From the NCBI GenBank assembly GCA_913020235.1, contig CAJWBT010000104.1:1-7662 (forward strand): 7,662 nt of DNA, read 5' to 3'. Below the pieces are notes generated by a model. That model saw only the letters and a list, made by a program, of their open reading frames with translations. It ran no database searches and was not told the origin of the DNA. This document shows, piece by piece, positions 1,128 to 7,455 of this stretch. The translations under genes and the position numbers were made by a program. Within the stretch, counting starts at the first letter, position 1. The number at the start of each line of letters is the position of its first letter. Source of the DNA: an uncultured Chloroflexota bacterium. Lineage in GTDB: Bacteria > Chloroflexota > Dehalococcoidia > UBA3495.

Positions 1128-2054
1128 TTGGCTAAAGACTACGACGTTCTGGTGATCGGTGGCGGCCTGGCTGGCCTGACTGCGGCGATGTTCGGCGCCC
1201 GGTACGGCCTGTCGACAGGGTTGATAGAGCAGATGATGGGCGGCGCGCAGATCATCAACATCGAGAAAATCGAAAACTTCCCCGGATTCCCCCAGGGGAT
1301 TTCCGGCTCGGAGTTGGGTCCCACGGTGCAAGAGCAGGCGATGGACGCCGGGGCTGAGTTCATCATGAGCGAGGCTGCCGGGGTATCGATGGACGGCCAA
1401 TATAAAGTCGTGTCCACCGATTCGGGCGACTACCGGGGCAAGGCGGTCATCGTCGCCGCAGGCTCCACCGCGCGCAAGCTGGGAATTCCGGGCGAGGACG
1501 AGTTCTACGGCCGCGGTGTGTCCCACTGCGCTACTTGCGATGGCCCCCTCCACATGAGCCAGGTCGTCGGCGTCGCCGGCGGCGGCGACGCTGCGGCGGA
1601 CGAGGCTTTGACCCTCACCGAGTACGCCGACCGGGTACTGCTTTTCCACCGGCGGGACCAACTCCGGGCGCAGAAGGTTTTGCAGGACCGGGTACACGCC
1701 AACCGCAAGATTGAGGTGGTCTGGAATACCCGAATAGAGGAAGTGCTCGGAGAGGACGTGGTTTCCGGGGTCCGGGTCCGCAACGTGGTAACCAACTTGG
1801 AGAACGCGGTGGAGGTGTCGGGCCTTTTCGTCTACGTGGGGTTGGAGCCCAACTCCGAGCTGGTAAGGAATCTGGTGCGGGTGGACGGGGCCGGCCACAT
1901 TCCCGTCAACATTTCCATGGAGACGGAGGTGCCAGGGCTCTACGCGGCTGGCGACATCCGTCAGAACTCGGCAGCCAAGCTCGCGTCTTCGGCCGGAGAC
2001 GGCGCCACCGCCGCCACCGCCGCCTTCAAATACATCAGGAGCAGGGACTGGTAG
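1128..2054 (+). CDS. trxB: Thioredoxin-disulfide reductase-like FAD/NADPH flavoprotein
   Basis: This is a 308-residue, low-molecular-weight thioredoxin reductase-type protein, predicted to pass electrons from NADPH through FAD to a redox-active disulfide and on to thioredoxin or a similar partner in the cytoplasm. In order: FAD-binding VIGGGLAGL (9-17), the IENFPGFP segment (48-55) typical of TrxB, the CATC disulfide (Cys134, Cys137) followed by DG, the NADPH Rossmann motif GVAGGGDAAADEA (148-160), HRRDQLRA (174-181) whose arginines normally select NADPH, and the second FAD motif GLYAAGDIR (270-278). Length is normal for the family (about 305-320). The usual GGGDSA is GGGDAA here, a minor change. 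No thioredoxin gene is next to it, so its partner is unknown. It heads a run of same-strand genes (73 bp to the LiaF-like gene) that may form an operon. The family call is firm; the exact partner, and therefore the symbol, is less certain. Confidence 0.88.
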   Translation: MAKDYDVLVIGGGLAGLTAAMFGARYGLSTGLIEQMMGGAQIINIEKIENFPGFPQGISGSELGPTVQEQAMDAGAEFIMSEAAGVSMDGQYKVVSTDSGDYRGKAVIVAAGSTARKLGIPGEDEFYGRGVSHCATCDGPLHMSQVVGVAGGGDAAADEALTLTEYADRVLLFHRRDQLRAQKVLQDRVHANRKIEVVWNTRIEEVLGEDVVSGVRVRNVVTNLENAVEVSGLFVYVGLEPNSELVRNLVRVDGAGHIPVNISMETEVPGLYAAGDIRQNSAAKLASSAGDGATAATAAFKYIRSRDW

Positions 2055-2112
2055 AGGGCAAGATGGATCCCTTCACGCGCCACAATCCATGCCGCCGGGA
2101 AAGGGCAGGTGC

Positions 2113-2119
2113 AAAGGGG
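2113..2119 (+). promoter_or_regulatory. Shine-Dalgarno choosing the LiaF-like start at 2128
   Basis: AAAGGGG lies 8 nt before ATG 2128. An in-frame ATG at 2089 would add 13 hydrophilic, Lys/Gly-rich residues and has no Shine-Dalgarno, so the internal ATG is preferred. Confidence 0.5.
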
Positions 2120-2127
2120 CGCCAGAG

Positions 2128-2874
2128 ATGAATTACCCGTGGCTATCCACGAGAACCTTTGTCGGCCTGTTGGTGCTTGGCGTCGGCGTTATGCTCCTGC
2201 TGGACACCACCGACGCCCTGGGTGAAGACACGTCAGTTTTCGGAACCTACTGGCCGGCGCTCCTCATCGCGGCGGGACTGTGGCGGCTGGGCTCTCGTGG
2301 CTTCCGATTCAAGCTATCGCCCCTGATCGTCTTGACCCTCGGAATGGTGTTCTTGCTCGCCGAGCTTGAGGTCGGCTCCCTGAGCATCGGCCAGCTCTGG
2401 CCCGTCATCGTAATAGTGTTGGGCGGGACGCTGTTGCTCCGCGGGCTCACCGGCGGACGCCGCGGGTGGCGAAGGCGATCAGCCGGACGGGGCTTCTCGA
2501 ATCTCATCTCCGGGGACCTGCGTAGTGGGACCCGCGGCTCCGGGGATGACGCGGTGAAGGCCATCTTCTCGGGCGCCAAAAAGCGCGTTACCTCCCAGGA
2601 GTTCGCGCGCCTTCAGGCAACCGCAATCTTCGGTGGGGTCGAGTTGGACCTCAGCGGGGCCAGTCTCGCCGGGGATAACGCGACCCTCGAGGTGACCGTG
2701 CTGTTTGGTGGGCTTGAAATTAGGGTACCTCGTGGCTGGAGGGTCAACGATGAGACGGCTCCAGTGGCTGGACAGCTGGAGATTGAACGCCGGCAGCCCG
2801 CGCCGGATGAGGCCACCGGGGCGCTCACCATCACCGGTACCTTGATTTTCGGTGGCATCACCGTTCGGAGCTAG
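2128..2874 (+). CDS. LiaF-like four-TM membrane protein with C-terminal FGG-repeat domain
   Basis: The 248-residue product resembles LiaF/YvqF-type envelope-stress proteins. LiaF of Firmicutes inhibits the LiaS kinase until cell-wall stress occurs. The N-terminal half has four likely membrane segments at about 10-27, 40-56, 64-81 and 87-105, followed by a strongly basic stretch (GGRRGWRRR, 109-117) that should stay inside. A linker leads to a beta-rich C-terminal domain (about 144-248) built on a repeated motif: AIFSGAKKRV, AIFGGVELDL, VLFGGLEIRV and LIFGGITVRS. This is the pattern of the LiaF/DUF2154 C-terminal domain. No liaS-liaR pair adjoins it; the NarL-type kinase and regulator lie 1.6 kb downstream behind two metabolic genes. 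Family membership is well supported by the repeats. A role in sensing or inhibiting a kinase is inference. Confidence 0.75.
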   Translation: MNYPWLSTRTFVGLLVLGVGVMLLLDTTDALGEDTSVFGTYWPALLIAAGLWRLGSRGFRFKLSPLIVLTLGMVFLLAELEVGSLSIGQLWPVIVIVLGGTLLLRGLTGGRRGWRRRSAGRGFSNLISGDLRSGTRGSGDDAVKAIFSGAKKRVTSQEFARLQATAIFGGVELDLSGASLAGDNATLEVTVLFGGLEIRVPRGWRVNDETAPVAGQLEIERRQPAPDEATGALTITGTLIFGGITVRS

Positions 2875-2891
2875 CCGGGACCCAACCGGCT
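2873..2891 (+). other. Hairpin overlapping the LiaF-like stop codon
   Basis: AGCCGG (2873-2878) and CCGGCT (2886-2891) can form a 6-bp stem with a 7-nt loop, followed by a second possible GCGGC/GCCGC stem. There is no T-run, so it is not a convincing terminator. It might protect the upstream mRNA end or partly attenuate transcription. Confidence 0.3.
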
Positions 2892-2937
2892 GGCGGCCCG
2901 CGAAAGCCGCTAAGAACCAATAGAACGGGAGGTTGCT

Positions 2938-3300
2938 ATGGATCTGGTCGAGGAGCAGCTGCGCAACAGCAATACCATCGCCGTCGTGGGCCTTTCCGGC
3001 AACCCGGAGCGGACCAGCTACCGGGTGTCCAAGTACATGCAGGAGCAGGGGTACCGCATCATCCCCGTCAACCCCATGATCGCTGAGGCCTTGGGTGAAA
3101 AGAGCTACCCGGACCTGAAATCGGTCCCGGTGCCCATCGACATGGTGGACGTTTTCCGGCGGTCCGAACTGGTACGCCCGGTGGTGGACGAGGCTATCGA
3201 GGTAGGCGTCAAGTACATCTGGATGCAGGACGGAGTCATCGATACCGAAGCGGCCGCCAAGGCGGAACGGGCCGGCATCCCGGTGGTCATGGACGATTGA
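2938..3300 (+). CDS. CoA-binding domain protein (YccU/CoA_binding_2 type), possibly extended past an in-frame TGA
   Basis: This is a small, single-domain Rossmann protein of the CoA_binding_2 type. Members bind CoA; their cellular role is poorly defined. Motifs read IAVVGLSGNPERTSYRV (14-30), the nucleotide-binding loop; IIPVNP (41-46); DMVDVFRR (68-75); YIWMQDGV (93-100); and IPVVMDD (114-120). A GGGAGG Shine-Dalgarno precedes the ATG. The product stops at 120 residues, whereas relatives are usually about 135-145 and end in a pattern like VVxDRC...EHxRLF.G. Here TGA stands where the Cys is expected. The same frame continues for 21 codons to a TAG at 3364-3366 and carries H, R, F and G at matching positions. 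The full-length protein may thus be 142 residues with a selenocysteine at 121, or the gene may be slightly truncated by mutation. It follows the LiaF-like gene by 63 bp. Confidence 0.85.
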   Translation: MDLVEEQLRNSNTIAVVGLSGNPERTSYRVSKYMQEQGYRIIPVNPMIAEALGEKSYPDLKSVPVPIDMVDVFRRSELVRPVVDEAIEVGVKYIWMQDGVIDTEAAAKAERAGIPVVMDD

Positions 3301-3301
3301 A

Positions 3302-3347
3302 CCCTCCGGGTGCATCGCCGCCGGTTCGGCGGCCAACAGGCGGGGGG
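3302..3347 (+). other. SECIS-like hairpin directly after the CoA-binding gene's TGA
   Basis: GCCGCC (3317-3322) and GGCGGC (3328-3333) enclose the apical loop GGTTC; pairing G3323-C3327 would extend the stem to 7 bp around GTT. A lower stem can form between CCCTCCG (3302-3308) and CGGGGGG (3341-3347) with one U-G pair. The loop G is about 22 nt beyond the TGA, within the spacing known for bacterial SECIS elements, and GGUU in the loop recalls the GGUC of E. coli fdhF. The region is GC-rich, so hairpins are common by chance, and no T-run makes it a terminator. Confidence 0.35.
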
Positions 3348-3390
3348 GACCGCGGCATCGGGCTAGCCAGGCTGGCCGGCGTCGTGGTAC

Positions 3391-3417
3391 TCGACATCAT
3401 GCGCCTCTATATATAGG
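3391..3417 (+). promoter_or_regulatory. Weak candidate promoter or operator before the SDR gene
   Basis: TCGACA (3391-3396, 5 of 6 to TTGACA) precedes an AT island containing the 10-bp perfect palindrome CTATATATAG (3407-3416). The best -10, TATAGG, gives a 15-nt spacer, which is short. The AT island stands out in an otherwise GC-rich gap. It could be a promoter, a regulator site, or both. Confidence 0.33.
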
Positions 3418-3455
3418 ACCTCGCCGGTGAAAGATGGCGACGAGGCTGGAAACAG

Positions 3456-3470
3456 CGCGGCATAGCCGCG
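3456..3470 (+). repeat. Inverted repeat in the SDR leader
   Basis: CGCGGC-ATA-GCCGCG is a perfect 6-bp inverted repeat with a 3-nt loop, 30 bp before the SDR start and just ahead of its Shine-Dalgarno. It could form a hairpin in the mRNA leader or be a protein site. No function is shown. Confidence 0.35.
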
Positions 3471-3490
3471 TCGGGGGAGCCCACGGAGAC

Positions 3491-3495
3491 GGAGG
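3491..3495 (+). promoter_or_regulatory. Shine-Dalgarno of the SDR gene
   Basis: GGAGG lies 5 nt before ATG 3501. An in-frame GTG at 3495 overlaps this site, so it is an unlikely start. Confidence 0.65.
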
Positions 3496-3500
3496 TGAGA

Positions 3501-4256
3501 ATGGGCAGATTGGAAGGGAAGGTAGCGTTGATCAGTGGAGGGGCCAGGGGGCAGGGGGCTGTCGAGGCCAAAATGATGGCCCGCGAGGGCGCCAAGGTGG
3601 TCTTTGGGGACGTTCTGGACGACGAAGGTAGGAAGGTGGAGGCGGAGATTCTGGAGGCGGGCAACGAAGCCACCTACGTTCACCTGGACGTGACCCGGGC
3701 GGCCGACTGGCGGGCGGCTATCGAAACCGCCATCGACCGCTACGGCAAGCTGAACGTCCTGGTGAACAACGCCGGGATTCTCATCCGCAAGAGAATCGAG
3801 GACACCACCGAAGAGGACTGGGACCGCATCATGGCCGTGAACGCCAAAGGGGTGTTCCTGGGCACCAGAGAGGCCATCCCCGCACTGCGCCGGGCCGGCG
3901 GGGGCTCCATCGTCAACATCTCCTCCACCGCGGGGTTGGTGGCCAGCCCTCAGGGCGGCGCCGGCTACACCGCTACCAAGGGAGCGGTCCGTCTCTTCAC
4001 CAAGGCCACTGCGATCCAGCACGCCAAAGACAACATCCGGTGTAACTCCGTCCACCCCGGGCCGATTGACACGCCCATGATTCGGGAAACCCTGACCGAT
4101 CCCGCTAAGATGGAACAACGGATGCGGCGGCTGCCCATGGGCAGGGTGGGAACACCCGAAGACATTGCTTACGGGGTCCTTTATCTGGCCTCCGACGAGT
4201 CCTCGTTCGTCACCGGCGCGGAACTGGTCATCGACGGGGGCACCACTGCCGAGTAA
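3501..4256 (+). CDS. Short-chain dehydrogenase/reductase (classical SDR)
   Basis: The 251-residue product is a complete classical SDR, an NAD(P)-dependent oxidoreductase acting on an alcohol or ketone group in the cytoplasm. The cofactor loop is SGGARGQG (12-19), a variant of TGxxxGxG. Asp37 at the end of the second strand (VVFGDV) suggests NAD rather than NADP. NNAG is at 89-92 and the structural Asn is Asn114 (MAVNAKG). The active site is NISS (Ser142 the likely catalytic serine), Tyr156 and Lys160 in YTATK. The C-terminal signature is GRVGTPEDIA...ASDESSFVTGAELVIDGG. Length is typical (about 250). The Ser-Tyr spacing is one residue longer than the usual 12, from an insertion in SPQGGAGY. 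The substrate cannot be predicted; relatives include 3-oxoacyl-ACP reductases, glucose dehydrogenases and steroid dehydrogenases. It is 200 bp from the upstream gene, so it probably has its own transcription start. Confidence 0.92.
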   Translation: MGRLEGKVALISGGARGQGAVEAKMMAREGAKVVFGDVLDDEGRKVEAEILEAGNEATYVHLDVTRAADWRAAIETAIDRYGKLNVLVNNAGILIRKRIEDTTEEDWDRIMAVNAKGVFLGTREAIPALRRAGGGSIVNISSTAGLVASPQGGAGYTATKGAVRLFTKATAIQHAKDNIRCNSVHPGPIDTPMIRETLTDPAKMEQRMRRLPMGRVGTPEDIAYGVLYLASDESSFVTGAELVIDGGTTAE

Positions 4257-4471: not shown

Positions 4472-5557
4472 ATGGATCAACTGAAATCCCTACGCCGGGC
4501 CGACCCTCAAGAGAGACAAGTCAATCGGACAGTGGAAGTGCTCGAAGGGGCGCTCGGCCCGGCGGAAGAGCTTTACCGCAAGATTTTCGACCACTCGAAT
4601 GATGCGATATTCGTGATTGACCCTGGTGAGGACACAATCGTAGACGTAAATCCCAAAGCCTGCGTCATGTTGGGTTACTCCCGAAAAGAACTCCTGTTGA
4701 TTCCGATATCGGCGGTGCACCCCAACGAAATGACCAAGCTCCAGGCTTTTGCTGAGGCGGTCTTCAGGGACGGGAGTGGGTGGACCAACGAACTCAGCTG
4801 CCTTACCAAGGGTGGTCATGAGTTGGCTTCAGAGATCTCGGCCTCCCCCATCGATGTTGCCGGGCAGACGCGGATTATCGCCATGGTCCGGGACATCACA
4901 GAGCGGAGGCAGGCGGAGCAGGCGCAGCGACAACTGGCGGTGGTGGAGGAGCGAAACCGTCTGGCCCGTGAGATTCACGATTCTCTGGCCCAGGGGCTCA
5001 CGGCGATCATCTGGCAGATCAACGCGGCGGAAGGGCAGGCCGAAGCCGGCGGGGAACAAGCGTTGCAGAACCTGAGGCGAATCCGCGACCTGGCCAGAGA
5101 GAGCCTCCAGGAGGCCCGCCGGTCGGTTTGGGACCTGCGAAGCGGCCCGCTGAAGGGCCTGTCACTGGTAGGAGCGCTGCGACGGGAGACCGACAAGGCT
5201 GCCGGAGGCAATGTCCGGGCCTCTTTCAACGTGGAGGGGGAAGACCGGGTACTGCCCGGCGGGGTGGAGGCCTCCGTCCTTCGCATCTGCCAGGAGGCAC
5301 TGGCCAACATGCTCAAGCACGCCAACGCCAGCCGAGTGGCGGTGACCATAGAGTTCGATGACGCCTGGGTCCGCCTGACGGTAGAAGACGACGGTGTGGG
5401 CTTCGAGCCGGTCATCCCGAAGCATTGGGACAGGGACAGCGGCGGCTTCGGGCTGGTCAGTATGCGAGAGAGGGCCCACCTGCTGGGGGGAGAATTGACC
5501 GTGAGCAGCGCCATTGGCCGGGGCACCACGGTGAAGGCGGCCATGCCGCTGAAATAG
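4472..5557 (+). CDS. Soluble PAS-domain histidine kinase, NarL/LiaS type (HisKA_3)
   Basis: This 361-residue sensor kinase autophosphorylates on His and hands the phosphate to a response regulator. A short charged, partly helical start (1-32) leads into a PAS domain (about 33-146) with IFDHSNDAIFVID, the NPKACVMLGYS loop and the closing MVRDITERR. A coiled linker follows. The HisKA_3 dimerisation motif ERNRLAREIHDSLAQGL carries the phospho-acceptor His169. The ATPase domain has an N box CQEALANMLKHA (Asn279), a G1 box DDGVG (307-310) and a G2 box GGFGLVSMRERAHLLGG. No transmembrane segment or signal peptide is seen, so it should sense a cytoplasmic signal through PAS; the ligand is unknown. 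It is followed after 13 bp by its likely partner regulator. The Shine-Dalgarno is weak (AAGGA, 12 nt from the ATG). Confidence 0.92.
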   Translation: MDQLKSLRRADPQERQVNRTVEVLEGALGPAEELYRKIFDHSNDAIFVIDPGEDTIVDVNPKACVMLGYSRKELLLIPISAVHPNEMTKLQAFAEAVFRDGSGWTNELSCLTKGGHELASEISASPIDVAGQTRIIAMVRDITERRQAEQAQRQLAVVEERNRLAREIHDSLAQGLTAIIWQINAAEGQAEAGGEQALQNLRRIRDLARESLQEARRSVWDLRSGPLKGLSLVGALRRETDKAAGGNVRASFNVEGEDRVLPGGVEASVLRICQEALANMLKHANASRVAVTIEFDDAWVRLTVEDDGVGFEPVIPKHWDRDSGGFGLVSMRERAHLLGGELTVSSAIGRGTTVKAAMPLK

Positions 5558-5570
5558 CGGGAGAGACCGG

Positions 5571-6227
5571 GTGGAGACGATGAAAGAGCCCATCAGAATC
5601 TTGATTGCAGACGACCACCCTATCGTTCGGCAGGGACTGGCCGCCGTGCTGGACCGGGAGGACGACCTGGTGGTTGTCGCCCAGGCCGCCAACGGCCTGG
5701 AAGCGGTCGCCAAGGCCCGCGAGCTTTTGCCTGACATCATCTTGATGGACTTGCAGATGCCCGAGATGGACGGTGTAGCCGCGATTATCGAGATCAAAGA
5801 AGCGGCCCTGGAAGCCGGCATCATAATCCTGACCACCTACGATACAGATGATTACATCTTCCGCGGCATCGAGGCCGGAGCCAGAGGCTACCTGCTCAAA
5901 GACTCACCTCCCGAGGACGTGATTAAAGCCATCCGGTCGGTCTACCGGGGGGAGTCGCTGATTCAGCCTCGGGTGGCCAGCAGGCTCCTGGACCGGTTGA
6001 GCCAACTCTCCCGCGCCGCGCCGCCCGAGGGGCCTCTCTCGATGCGCGAGGTGGAAGTGCTCCAGATAATGGCCACCGGGGCCGCCAACAAAGATATTGC
6101 CAGCCGTCTCAACATCGGCCAGAGCACCGTCAAGACCCACATCGTCCGCATCTTCGACAAACTGGGGGTCAGCGGCCGGACGGAAGCGGTGACCGAAGCC
6201 GCGAAAAGGAAGATAATCGAGTTGTAA
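5571..6227 (+). CDS. NarL/LuxR-type DNA-binding response regulator
   Basis: This 218-residue regulator pairs with the kinase just upstream. The receiver domain (about 7-125) has the acidic pair Asp14/Asp15 (IADDHP), the phospho-acceptor Asp60 (IILMDLQMP), Thr88 or Thr89 (ILTTYD) and Lys110 (GYLLKD), so all switch residues are present. The LuxR-type helix-turn-helix (about 156-212) reads LSMREVEVLQIMATG, then NKDIASRLNIGQSTVKTHIVRIFDKLGV. It should act as a transcription factor when phosphorylated. The start may be GTG 5571, with GGGAG 7 nt upstream, or ATG 5580, where spacing to GGAG is too short; GTG is preferred. The spacing of 13 bp from the kinase and the terminator downstream define a two-gene operon. 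Targets are unknown. Confidence 0.93.
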   Translation: METMKEPIRILIADDHPIVRQGLAAVLDREDDLVVVAQAANGLEAVAKARELLPDIILMDLQMPEMDGVAAIIEIKEAALEAGIIILTTYDTDDYIFRGIEAGARGYLLKDSPPEDVIKAIRSVYRGESLIQPRVASRLLDRLSQLSRAAPPEGPLSMREVEVLQIMATGAANKDIASRLNIGQSTVKTHIVRIFDKLGVSGRTEAVTEAAKRKIIEL

Positions 6228-6256
6228 CCGGCTGCCGGGACTAATCCATGTCCACC

Positions 6257-6293
6257 AAGAGGTTGATCGCTGTATCAACCTCTTTTCTGTTTG
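6257..6293 (+). terminator. Intrinsic terminator of the kinase-regulator operon
   Basis: AAGAGGTTGAT (6257-6267) and ATCAACCTCTT (6274-6284) form a perfect 11-bp stem with a 6-nt loop (CGCTGT), followed by a T-rich run TTCTGTTT. It lies 30 nt after the regulator stop and separates that operon from the receiver-only gene. Confidence 0.85.
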
Positions 6294-6332
6294 GATTCGG
6301 TGGAGTGGGGGATGTCCAACGAGGAGCGAAAA

Positions 6333-6346
6333 GATAATATCGGATA
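6333..6346 (+). promoter_or_regulatory. Candidate promoter/operator of the receiver-sigma unit
   Basis: GATAAT (6333-6338) could serve as a -10, but no good -35 lies 16-18 nt upstream, so a regulator- or alternative-sigma-dependent promoter is possible. Overlapping it is TAATATCGGATA (6335-6346), matching 11 of 12 bases of the sequence at the kinase promoter. It lies between the upstream terminator and the next gene, where a new start is expected. Confidence 0.38.
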
Positions 6347-6385
6347 AGAGAGATCAGGCACCGGGGCTTCAAGGAAAGACATCAT

Positions 6386-6775
6386 ATGATCCGAATTCTA
6401 ATCGCGGAAGATTGCCCTTATGTTCTAGATGGACTGACGTGTCTTATCCAGGCCCAATCCGATTTTGACCTGGTAGGCACGGCCAAGGACGGCCAAGAGG
6501 CGCTGGAGAGGGCATTGGAGCTACGCCCCGACGTGGTAATCATGGATGCCCAGATGCCACGGCTCGACGGCGTGGAGGCCACCAGGCTCCTCAAACGGAC
6601 CTCGCCCGATGTCGGCGTCCTGTTTTTCAGCGTGTTCACCGAGTACCTGGAGGCAAGCGTGGTTGCCGGATCCGACGGTTGCCTGTGCAAGGACTGCGAA
6701 CCGACGGCGCTGTTTGCCGAGATCCGGCGCATCGCTTCCCGTCCTCCGACAGAGGACCTGGCGGCGGCCGACTGA
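6386..6775 (+). CDS. Receiver-only response regulator with a cysteine cluster
   Basis: The 129-residue product is a single receiver domain with no output domain, most like the receivers of NarL-family regulators. The acidic pair is Glu8/Asp9 (IAEDC), the phospho-acceptor is Asp54 (VVIMDAQMP), the switch Ser is Ser82 (FFSVF) and the conserved Lys is Lys102. It should accept phosphate and act by protein contact or as a phosphate sink, possibly for the kinase upstream. It is odd in having Cys10 where NarL-type proteins have His of DDH, and a CLCKDC segment (Cys99, Cys101, Cys104) around Lys102. It ends after a short acidic tail. AAGGA lies 10 nt before the ATG. The ECF sigma gene follows by 71 bp, probably in the same transcript. 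The domain is clear; the function is not. Confidence 0.88.
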   Translation: MIRILIAEDCPYVLDGLTCLIQAQSDFDLVGTAKDGQEALERALELRPDVVIMDAQMPRLDGVEATRLLKRTSPDVGVLFFSVFTEYLEASVVAGSDGCLCKDCEPTALFAEIRRIASRPPTEDLAAAD

Positions 6776-6831
6776 CCACGGTCGCGGCAATCCCGGCCCC
6801 AACCAAGCGACGAAGGCTGGCGCAGTTTCGC

Positions 6832-6837
6832 AAGGAG
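6832..6837 (+). promoter_or_regulatory. Shine-Dalgarno deciding the sigma factor start
   Basis: AAGGAG lies 9 nt before ATG 6847. The same frame is open upstream into the receiver gene, but this site and the region-2 alignment place the start here; a tandem second ATG at 6850 is also possible. Confidence 0.7.
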
Positions 6838-6846
6838 TCAATAACA

Positions 6847-7455
6847 ATGATGGGTTCGATAGCATCAACGGCATTCCCACAGATTGCCTGGGGCTCAAAT
6901 GAGGTGGCCGCGCGGCCGGATCAGGACCGGGCCACGATGGAGAGCGCCTTCTCGCGGGTGGTCGAGGAATATGCTGACTTCGCCTACAACGTAGCATACC
7001 GCATGCTTCACAACGTTGAGGACGCCGAAGACGCGGTGCAGGAAGCCTTCATCTCCGCCTATCGTGCTTTCCCCCGCTTCAAAGGCGCGTCCAAGGTCTC
7101 GACCTGGCTCTACCGTATCGTCGTCAATTCCTGTTTGATGAAGATACGCAAGGATAAGTCCCGCGCCAAGTACCTGATCCAAACCGACTACAACGACGAA
7201 GTATCGCGCAGCTGGACCGCCGACCCGGAGCAGGCAGCGATCAGCGGCGAGCTGCGGGATGTCGTGGAATCGGAGTTGGGCAAGCTTTCCCCCGAGCTGC
7301 GCGCCACCGTAGTGATGCGGGACGTCCAGGGGTTGACTACCGAGGAATCAGCCGAGACGCTGGGGCTTTCGATAGCCGCGTTCAAATCCCGGCTCCACCG
7401 GGCCCGTGTTCTCGTACGCCAGGGACTGGAAGTATATCTGGCCAGGGAGAAGTAG
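6847..7455 (+). CDS. ECF-type RNA polymerase sigma factor (sigma-70 family)
   Basis: This 202-residue protein is an extracytoplasmic-function sigma factor that directs RNA polymerase to a set of stress or signal-responsive promoters. A polar leader of about 30 residues precedes region 2 (about 33-102), with EEYADFAYNVAYRML, the DAEDAVQEAF core-binding motif (59-68) and the -10-recognising KVSTWLYRIVVNSCL. Region 4 (about 143-200) has KLSPELRATVVMRDVQGLT and the helix-turn-helix ESAETLGLSIAAFKSRLHRAR, which reads the -35. Region 3 is missing, as usual for the class. No anti-sigma gene is found up to the window end, and no C-terminal extension is seen, so its control may come from the receiver-only neighbour, by transcription, or from a gene further away. 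The family assignment is firm; the regulon is unknown. Confidence 0.93.
   Translation: MMGSIASTAFPQIAWGSNEVAARPDQDRATMESAFSRVVEEYADFAYNVAYRMLHNVEDAEDAVQEAFISAYRAFPRFKGASKVSTWLYRIVVNSCLMKIRKDKSRAKYLIQTDYNDEVSRSWTADPEQAAISGELRDVVESELGKLSPELRATVVMRDVQGLTTEESAETLGLSIAAFKSRLHRARVLVRQGLEVYLAREK

Follow-up and report, generated by a model that had tools for sequence, protein, structure and literature searches.

An apparent new selenoprotein family in SAR202-type bacteria, with a predicted selenocysteine on a CoA-binding Rossmann domain

We analysed a 7,662-nucleotide stretch of DNA from an uncultured Chloroflexota bacterium (the window), in which a gene of the CoA_binding_2 family contains an in-frame TGA close to its 3' end. 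The features of the locus are collected in Table 1. The conventional open reading frame, 2938-3300, encodes 120 amino acids with VVMDD at the C-terminus and then TGA. The original prediction, made from the sequence letters, was that the same frame remains open for 21 codons past this TGA to a TAG; the TAG is at the expected place and the read-through product has 142 residues, reading VVMDD-U-TLRVHRRRFGGQQAGGTAASG across the UGA. Two genes lie upstream on the same strand. The product of the more distant one scores 333.1 bits against TIGR01292, just below the cut-off of 343.45, and the LiaF-like gene separates it from the CoA_binding_2 gene. Downstream, positions 4472-7455 hold in series a histidine kinase with PAS, a LuxR-type regulator, a single-domain response regulator and an ECF-type sigma factor, relatives of which are likewise found downstream of the corresponding gene in one related locus (L004).

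Table 1. Features of the CoA_binding_2 locus, in window coordinates.
Feature	Position	Strand	Remarks
Thioredoxin-reductase-like (TrxR-like) flavoprotein gene	1128..2054	+	start TTG; PF07992; possible redox partner
LiaF-like membrane protein gene	2089..2874	+	PF22570 / PF18917; start codon uncertain
Shine-Dalgarno-like GGGAGG	2927..2932	+	5 nt 5' of the ATG; read from the sequence by eye
Predicted CoA_binding_2 selenoprotein gene	2938..3363	+	142 codons with UGA as Sec, then TAG 3364-3366
In-frame UGA, predicted selenocysteine 121	3298..3300	+	TGA 48/111, TGC/TGT 63/111, TAA/TAG 0 (aligned sequences)
Predicted read-through coding tail	3301..3363	+	residues 122-134 = predicted last helix of the domain
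Bacterial-SECIS-like hairpin	3317..3333	+	stem 3317-3322/3328-3333, optional pair 3323-3327, loop GGUUC

The assignment to CoA_binding_2, originally made from the pattern of the family, was borne out by profile comparison: the read-through product scores 141.6 bits against PF13380 over residues 13-126, where the gathering score is 22.8, and the product stopped at the TGA scores lower, at 133.1 bits. The alignment of the read-through product with PH1109 and TT1466, both of solved structure, extends into the tail of the product and puts the TGA opposite their Cys, and among the structure alignments listed three solved structures have Cys at this position. Ten columns are invariant when the window, with its U written as C, is compared with 53 non-TGA homologues, and residue 121 is among them. 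The structure predicted from this 54-row alignment (A4, which combines 47 reading frames chosen from 61 without TGA with 6 public proteins and the window, every row except the window's having Cys) has a mean pLDDT of 94.7 and a confident helix at 122-134. An earlier model, from a 30-row alignment that included 7 proteins ending before codon 121, had a tail with pLDDT under 50. The predicted fold is that of solved CoA_binding_2 members, a Rossmann CoA-binding domain, and in the model Sec121 would sit just ahead of its last helix. CoA binding by the product is likewise predicted, from its homologues. The alpha subunit of succinyl-CoA synthetase (SCS) has a cysteine known from the literature, Cys123, and the equivalence of residue 121 with it is offered as a lead: since E. 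coli SucD was not matched in a profile comparison, it draws only on an ungapped motif aligned by eye and the common fold.

Codon 121 was then read in related loci. A first scan of genome contigs gave 64 loci, of which 63 aligned at codon 121 (37 TGA, 26 Cys), and same-class and same-order genomes added further loci to reach 110 aligned, 47 with TGA and 63 with Cys. Together with the window the codon is thus TGA in 48 sequences and a Cys codon in 63 (51 TGC and 12 TGT), and neither TAA nor TAG in any. These counts cover selected loci from match sets of 328 and 103 genomes; they leave out L064, whose match stops short of codon 121, L075, L076 and L154, which are places counted already, and L107-L134, which are repeat copies of genomes counted already. 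Thirty-six of the 47 TGA-bearing relatives are titled Dehalococcoidia, SAR202, Chloroflexi or Chloroflexota, one (L020) is titled Desulfobacteraceae and the other ten are from genomes of the window's class. The TGA recurs in these 47 loci at 56-88% identity, and in all 48 sequences the frame past it is open for 11-25 codons, ending at TAG (33), TAA (10) or TGA (5). Directly after the TGA the motif TLRxHRRRxGG is exact in 39/48. Close relatives of the window have the same TGA codon and a conserved downstream sequence, more distant ones have Cys, and the proposed placement of the TGA on the family's conserved Cys agrees with the three structure alignments and with all 63 non-TGA loci. The proposal that the tail matches the family was upheld, with one small correction: the motif is conserved among relatives, and the conserved portion stops near residue 132, the remainder being variable. 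On a tree of the 111 rows there are 7 changes between Sec and Cys, at least 4 of them forced by well-supported branches, with many forks unresolved.

Some further features of the sequences around codon 121 were observed. The base before the UGA (3297) is T in 41/48 TGA sequences (GAT 32, AAT 9) and the corresponding base is T in 12/63 Cys homologues, while bases 3301-3302 are AC in 47/48 TGA sequences; these may be decoding context. In one genome (G033) the first copy is followed approximately 1.4 kb on by another, partial match (71%; contig C30, 2557-2823) that has an in-frame TGA and is possibly a tandem Sec paralogue.

Bacterial SECIS elements have a G in the loop and lie within a limited distance of the UGA. 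The hairpin in the window begins 16 nt 3' of the UGA and its first loop G (3323) is 22 nt from it, so that the GGUUC apical loop placed about 22 nt past the TGA by the original prediction maps to 3323-3327. The hairpins of relatives have 6-7 pairs and a loop of GGUUC, GGUCU or similar. Numbering from the T of the TGA, the TGA sequences form every one of the pairs from 20-36 to 26-30 in 43-48 of 48 cases, and the Cys sequences in only 12-34 of 61 (two of the 63, L043 and L049, are too short). One TGA locus, L078, has a hairpin of other sequence a few nucleotides further downstream; it is absent from alignment A1 and included in the stem count. Pairing holds in 96.3% of cells (47 sequences, 42 distinct) and falls to 22-64% when the pairing is slid by 1-3 columns. 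Stem pair 21-35 has changed to U-A four times and to G-C once. Four of five pairing and covariation measures, including the covariation score, were reached by 0/500 shuffles; two pairs have changed on both sides, a number equalled in 49/500 shuffles and by the +3 slide. RNAalifold predicted only 4 of the hairpin pairs, and the window hairpin folded alone is unexceptional (z -1.39, with 19/200 shuffles as good). It is conserved pairing across relatives, not the fold of the window alone, that bears out its SECIS-like character.

Codon usage over the hairpin points the same way. We compared synonymous-codon diversity in 48 TGA and 63 Cys sequences (an earlier hairpin comparison used 40 TGA and 52 Cys). 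At codons 127-132 it is 0.20, 0.12, 0.17, 0.07, 0.26 and 0.05 in the Sec set and 0.75, 0.75, 0.67, 0.57, 0.72 and 0.78 in the Cys set (commonest residue); as an upstream control, 26 four- or six-fold codons of the Sec set have a mean diversity of 0.57 and a lowest value of 0.25. In a related locus with TGC, L023, the stem is lost. The pairing, the near-frozen synonymous codons of the Sec set and this loss together amount to a constraint at the RNA level that goes with the UGA. The hairpin was also considered as a transcription terminator and this was rejected, there being no terminator-like site in 2800-3600. Scanned against Rfam, the window yielded only matches under the gathering scores, among them a Fibro-purF match at 6277-6352 (25.9 bits against a gathering score of 60) that is probably due to chance.

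The genes for selenocysteine decoding were surveyed in 37 TGA-bearing relatives (G001-G038 minus G023), of which 33 have selA, 33 selB and 35 selD over the cut-off. At the tool's own cut-off tRNA-Sec was called in 40/43 genomes, yet also in 5/14 controls, so only matches of at least 62 bits were counted; there are 29 of these among the 37 relatives, and the next lower score is 54.2. All four components were found in 25/37 and at least one in 37/37; the 12 genomes in which at least one is missing may be incomplete assemblies. ARAGORN called tRNA-Sec with anticodon TCA in 6/6 loci given. In every one of the 40 genomes with selD over the cut-off the selD match has an in-frame TGA of its own, which in the two that were read lies within CAG-U-AAK, the usual SelD Sec motif. 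Ten further TGA genomes gave selB over the cut-off (8) or fragments only (2).

The idea that Cys forms are confined to genomes without selB was discarded, as selB is over the cut-off in 19/19 non-TGA genomes of one survey and was found in 5/6 of another; of the 19, 14 were read as Cys and five (G513, G519, G489, G563 and G532) have a match without TGA. Because Cys-form genomes mostly have selB, the exchange between Sec and Cys takes place inside Sec-decoding lineages. PMC5649159 reports that SelA and SelB occur together in bins of sponge symbionts from various phyla.

Taken together, the comparative evidence strongly supports selenocysteine insertion at UGA 3298-3300, and the gene is very probably a selenoprotein gene in which this UGA would be decoded as selenocysteine. 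The possibility of a CoA-binding selenoprotein, raised originally from the window alone, is supported by the TGA and Cys codons, the conserved tail, the SECIS-like hairpin and the sel genes of relatives. Alternatively the TGA could be a true stop, the gene then encoding a shortened protein of 120 residues or being a recent pseudogene whose homology persists downstream, and the protein records might be taken to say so, as 65 of the 120 public proteins listed stop one residue before codon 121 while 46 have Cys. Drift of this kind does not fit the recurrence of the TGA in 47 further loci, the conserved frame and the frozen, paired hairpin, and ending at codon 121 would cost the predicted fold its last helix. 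We therefore reject a pseudogene or true stop as highly improbable, and a sequencing error at 3298-3300 is rejected on the recurrence of the TGA. Two of the listed public proteins (P0002 and P0041) read through with one residue missing, which is probably a dropped U.

Even less credible is that UGA is reassigned genome-wide or is read without selenium as Trp, Arg or another residue. Five of the 120 listed public proteins (P0012, P0019, P0021, P0027 and P0031) do have W (2), R (2) or L (1) at residue 121, two more being unclassified, but these five are on contigs of 559-982 bases and W, R and L can each be reached from TGA by changing one base, so errors or losses may explain them. Cys in 63/63 non-TGA loci argues against any other residue. 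Genome-wide reassignment is rejected since UGA terminates another gene in the window, 6386-6775, and serves as the next stop in 5/48 TGA sequences.

For the selenoprotein reading, we propose that the ribosome would read UGA 3298-3300 as selenocysteine and continue to the TAG, with the hairpin at approximately 3317-3333 directing decoding through SelB and tRNA-Sec. The product would be a CoA-binding Rossmann protein of 142 residues and a single domain, with Sec taking the place of the conserved Cys121. Its selenol may be positioned where the thiol end of CoA binds, and could then undergo reversible redox chemistry, most likely as a Sec-S-CoA selenenylsulfide, with recycling by the neighbouring TrxR-like flavoprotein in the subclade to which the window belongs. 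We put forward this CoA-linked redox mechanism as a tentative hypothesis, of rather low probability, and the more specific version, a Sec121-CoA selenenylsulfide protein recycled by a dedicated TrxR-like flavoprotein in a SAR202-type CoA-based thiol redox system, is a little less likely still. Counted against it are the SucD comparison, the low pLDDT of the tail in the first model and the distribution of the reductase: a TrxR-like gene is upstream in 19/45 Sec loci and was not found in the other 26. The somewhat favoured reading is a selenoprotein whose Sec has another role, such as metal or electrophile scavenging, acyl-transfer, regulation or CoA-free peroxide reduction. The sources examined establish no function for the Cys of this family, and the gene neighbours of the Sec gene vary between clades, both of which leave room for such a role; the predicted CoA-binding fold and the reductase neighbour in the window's subclade speak against it. 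Another common neighbourhood occurs downstream of the Sec gene in L018, L021, L025, L026 and L152, where we take some of the proteins to resemble DUF1800/DUF1501. The role of residue 121 is directly testable, because nature has repeatedly exchanged Sec and Cys at this conserved position.

The gene very probably represents a real, and apparently undescribed, selenoprotein family in SAR202-type bacteria, its novelty being judged within the literature searched. Searches in that literature, with most subscription journals outside its coverage, gave, among the papers listed, no description of a CoA-binding selenoprotein, and no NCBIfam model calls the protein a selenoprotein. Table 1 of a 2026 review (PMC13188914) counts 119 prokaryotic selenoprotein families or subfamilies and has no row for CoA_binding_2 or PF13380. 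PMC11499653 cites Hiyama 2006 for Pyrococcus CoA-binding proteins. Found in genomes of SAR202-type bacteria and of other Dehalococcoidia, it seems to extend the selenoproteins by a family without the thioredoxin fold. Many gene calls in public records stop one residue before the UGA and are short by one helix.

The predicted protein shares with known bacterial SelA/SelB/SelC/SelD selenoproteins an in-frame UGA, a close downstream hairpin with a G in the loop and Cys homologues, the sel genes here being those of relatives, and differs from them in having a Rossmann CoA-binding fold and not a thioredoxin fold. A link between Sec and CoA is suggested by the name of the selenium-containing FAD oxidoreductase (CoA-disulfide reductase, TIGR03385) listed in PMC13188914, but that enzyme belongs to another protein family and the read-through product has no match to TIGR03385 in an NCBIfam scan. 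The SCS alpha subunit is a ligase subunit with a second domain, whereas the product here is single-domain. The closest known proteins are the CoA_binding_2 members themselves (PF13380; PH1109 of Pyrococcus horikoshii, TT1466 of Thermus thermophilus and the putative CoA-binding protein 2duw of Klebsiella), which have Cys where the gene described here has a UGA, predicted to encode Sec, and a SECIS-like hairpin.
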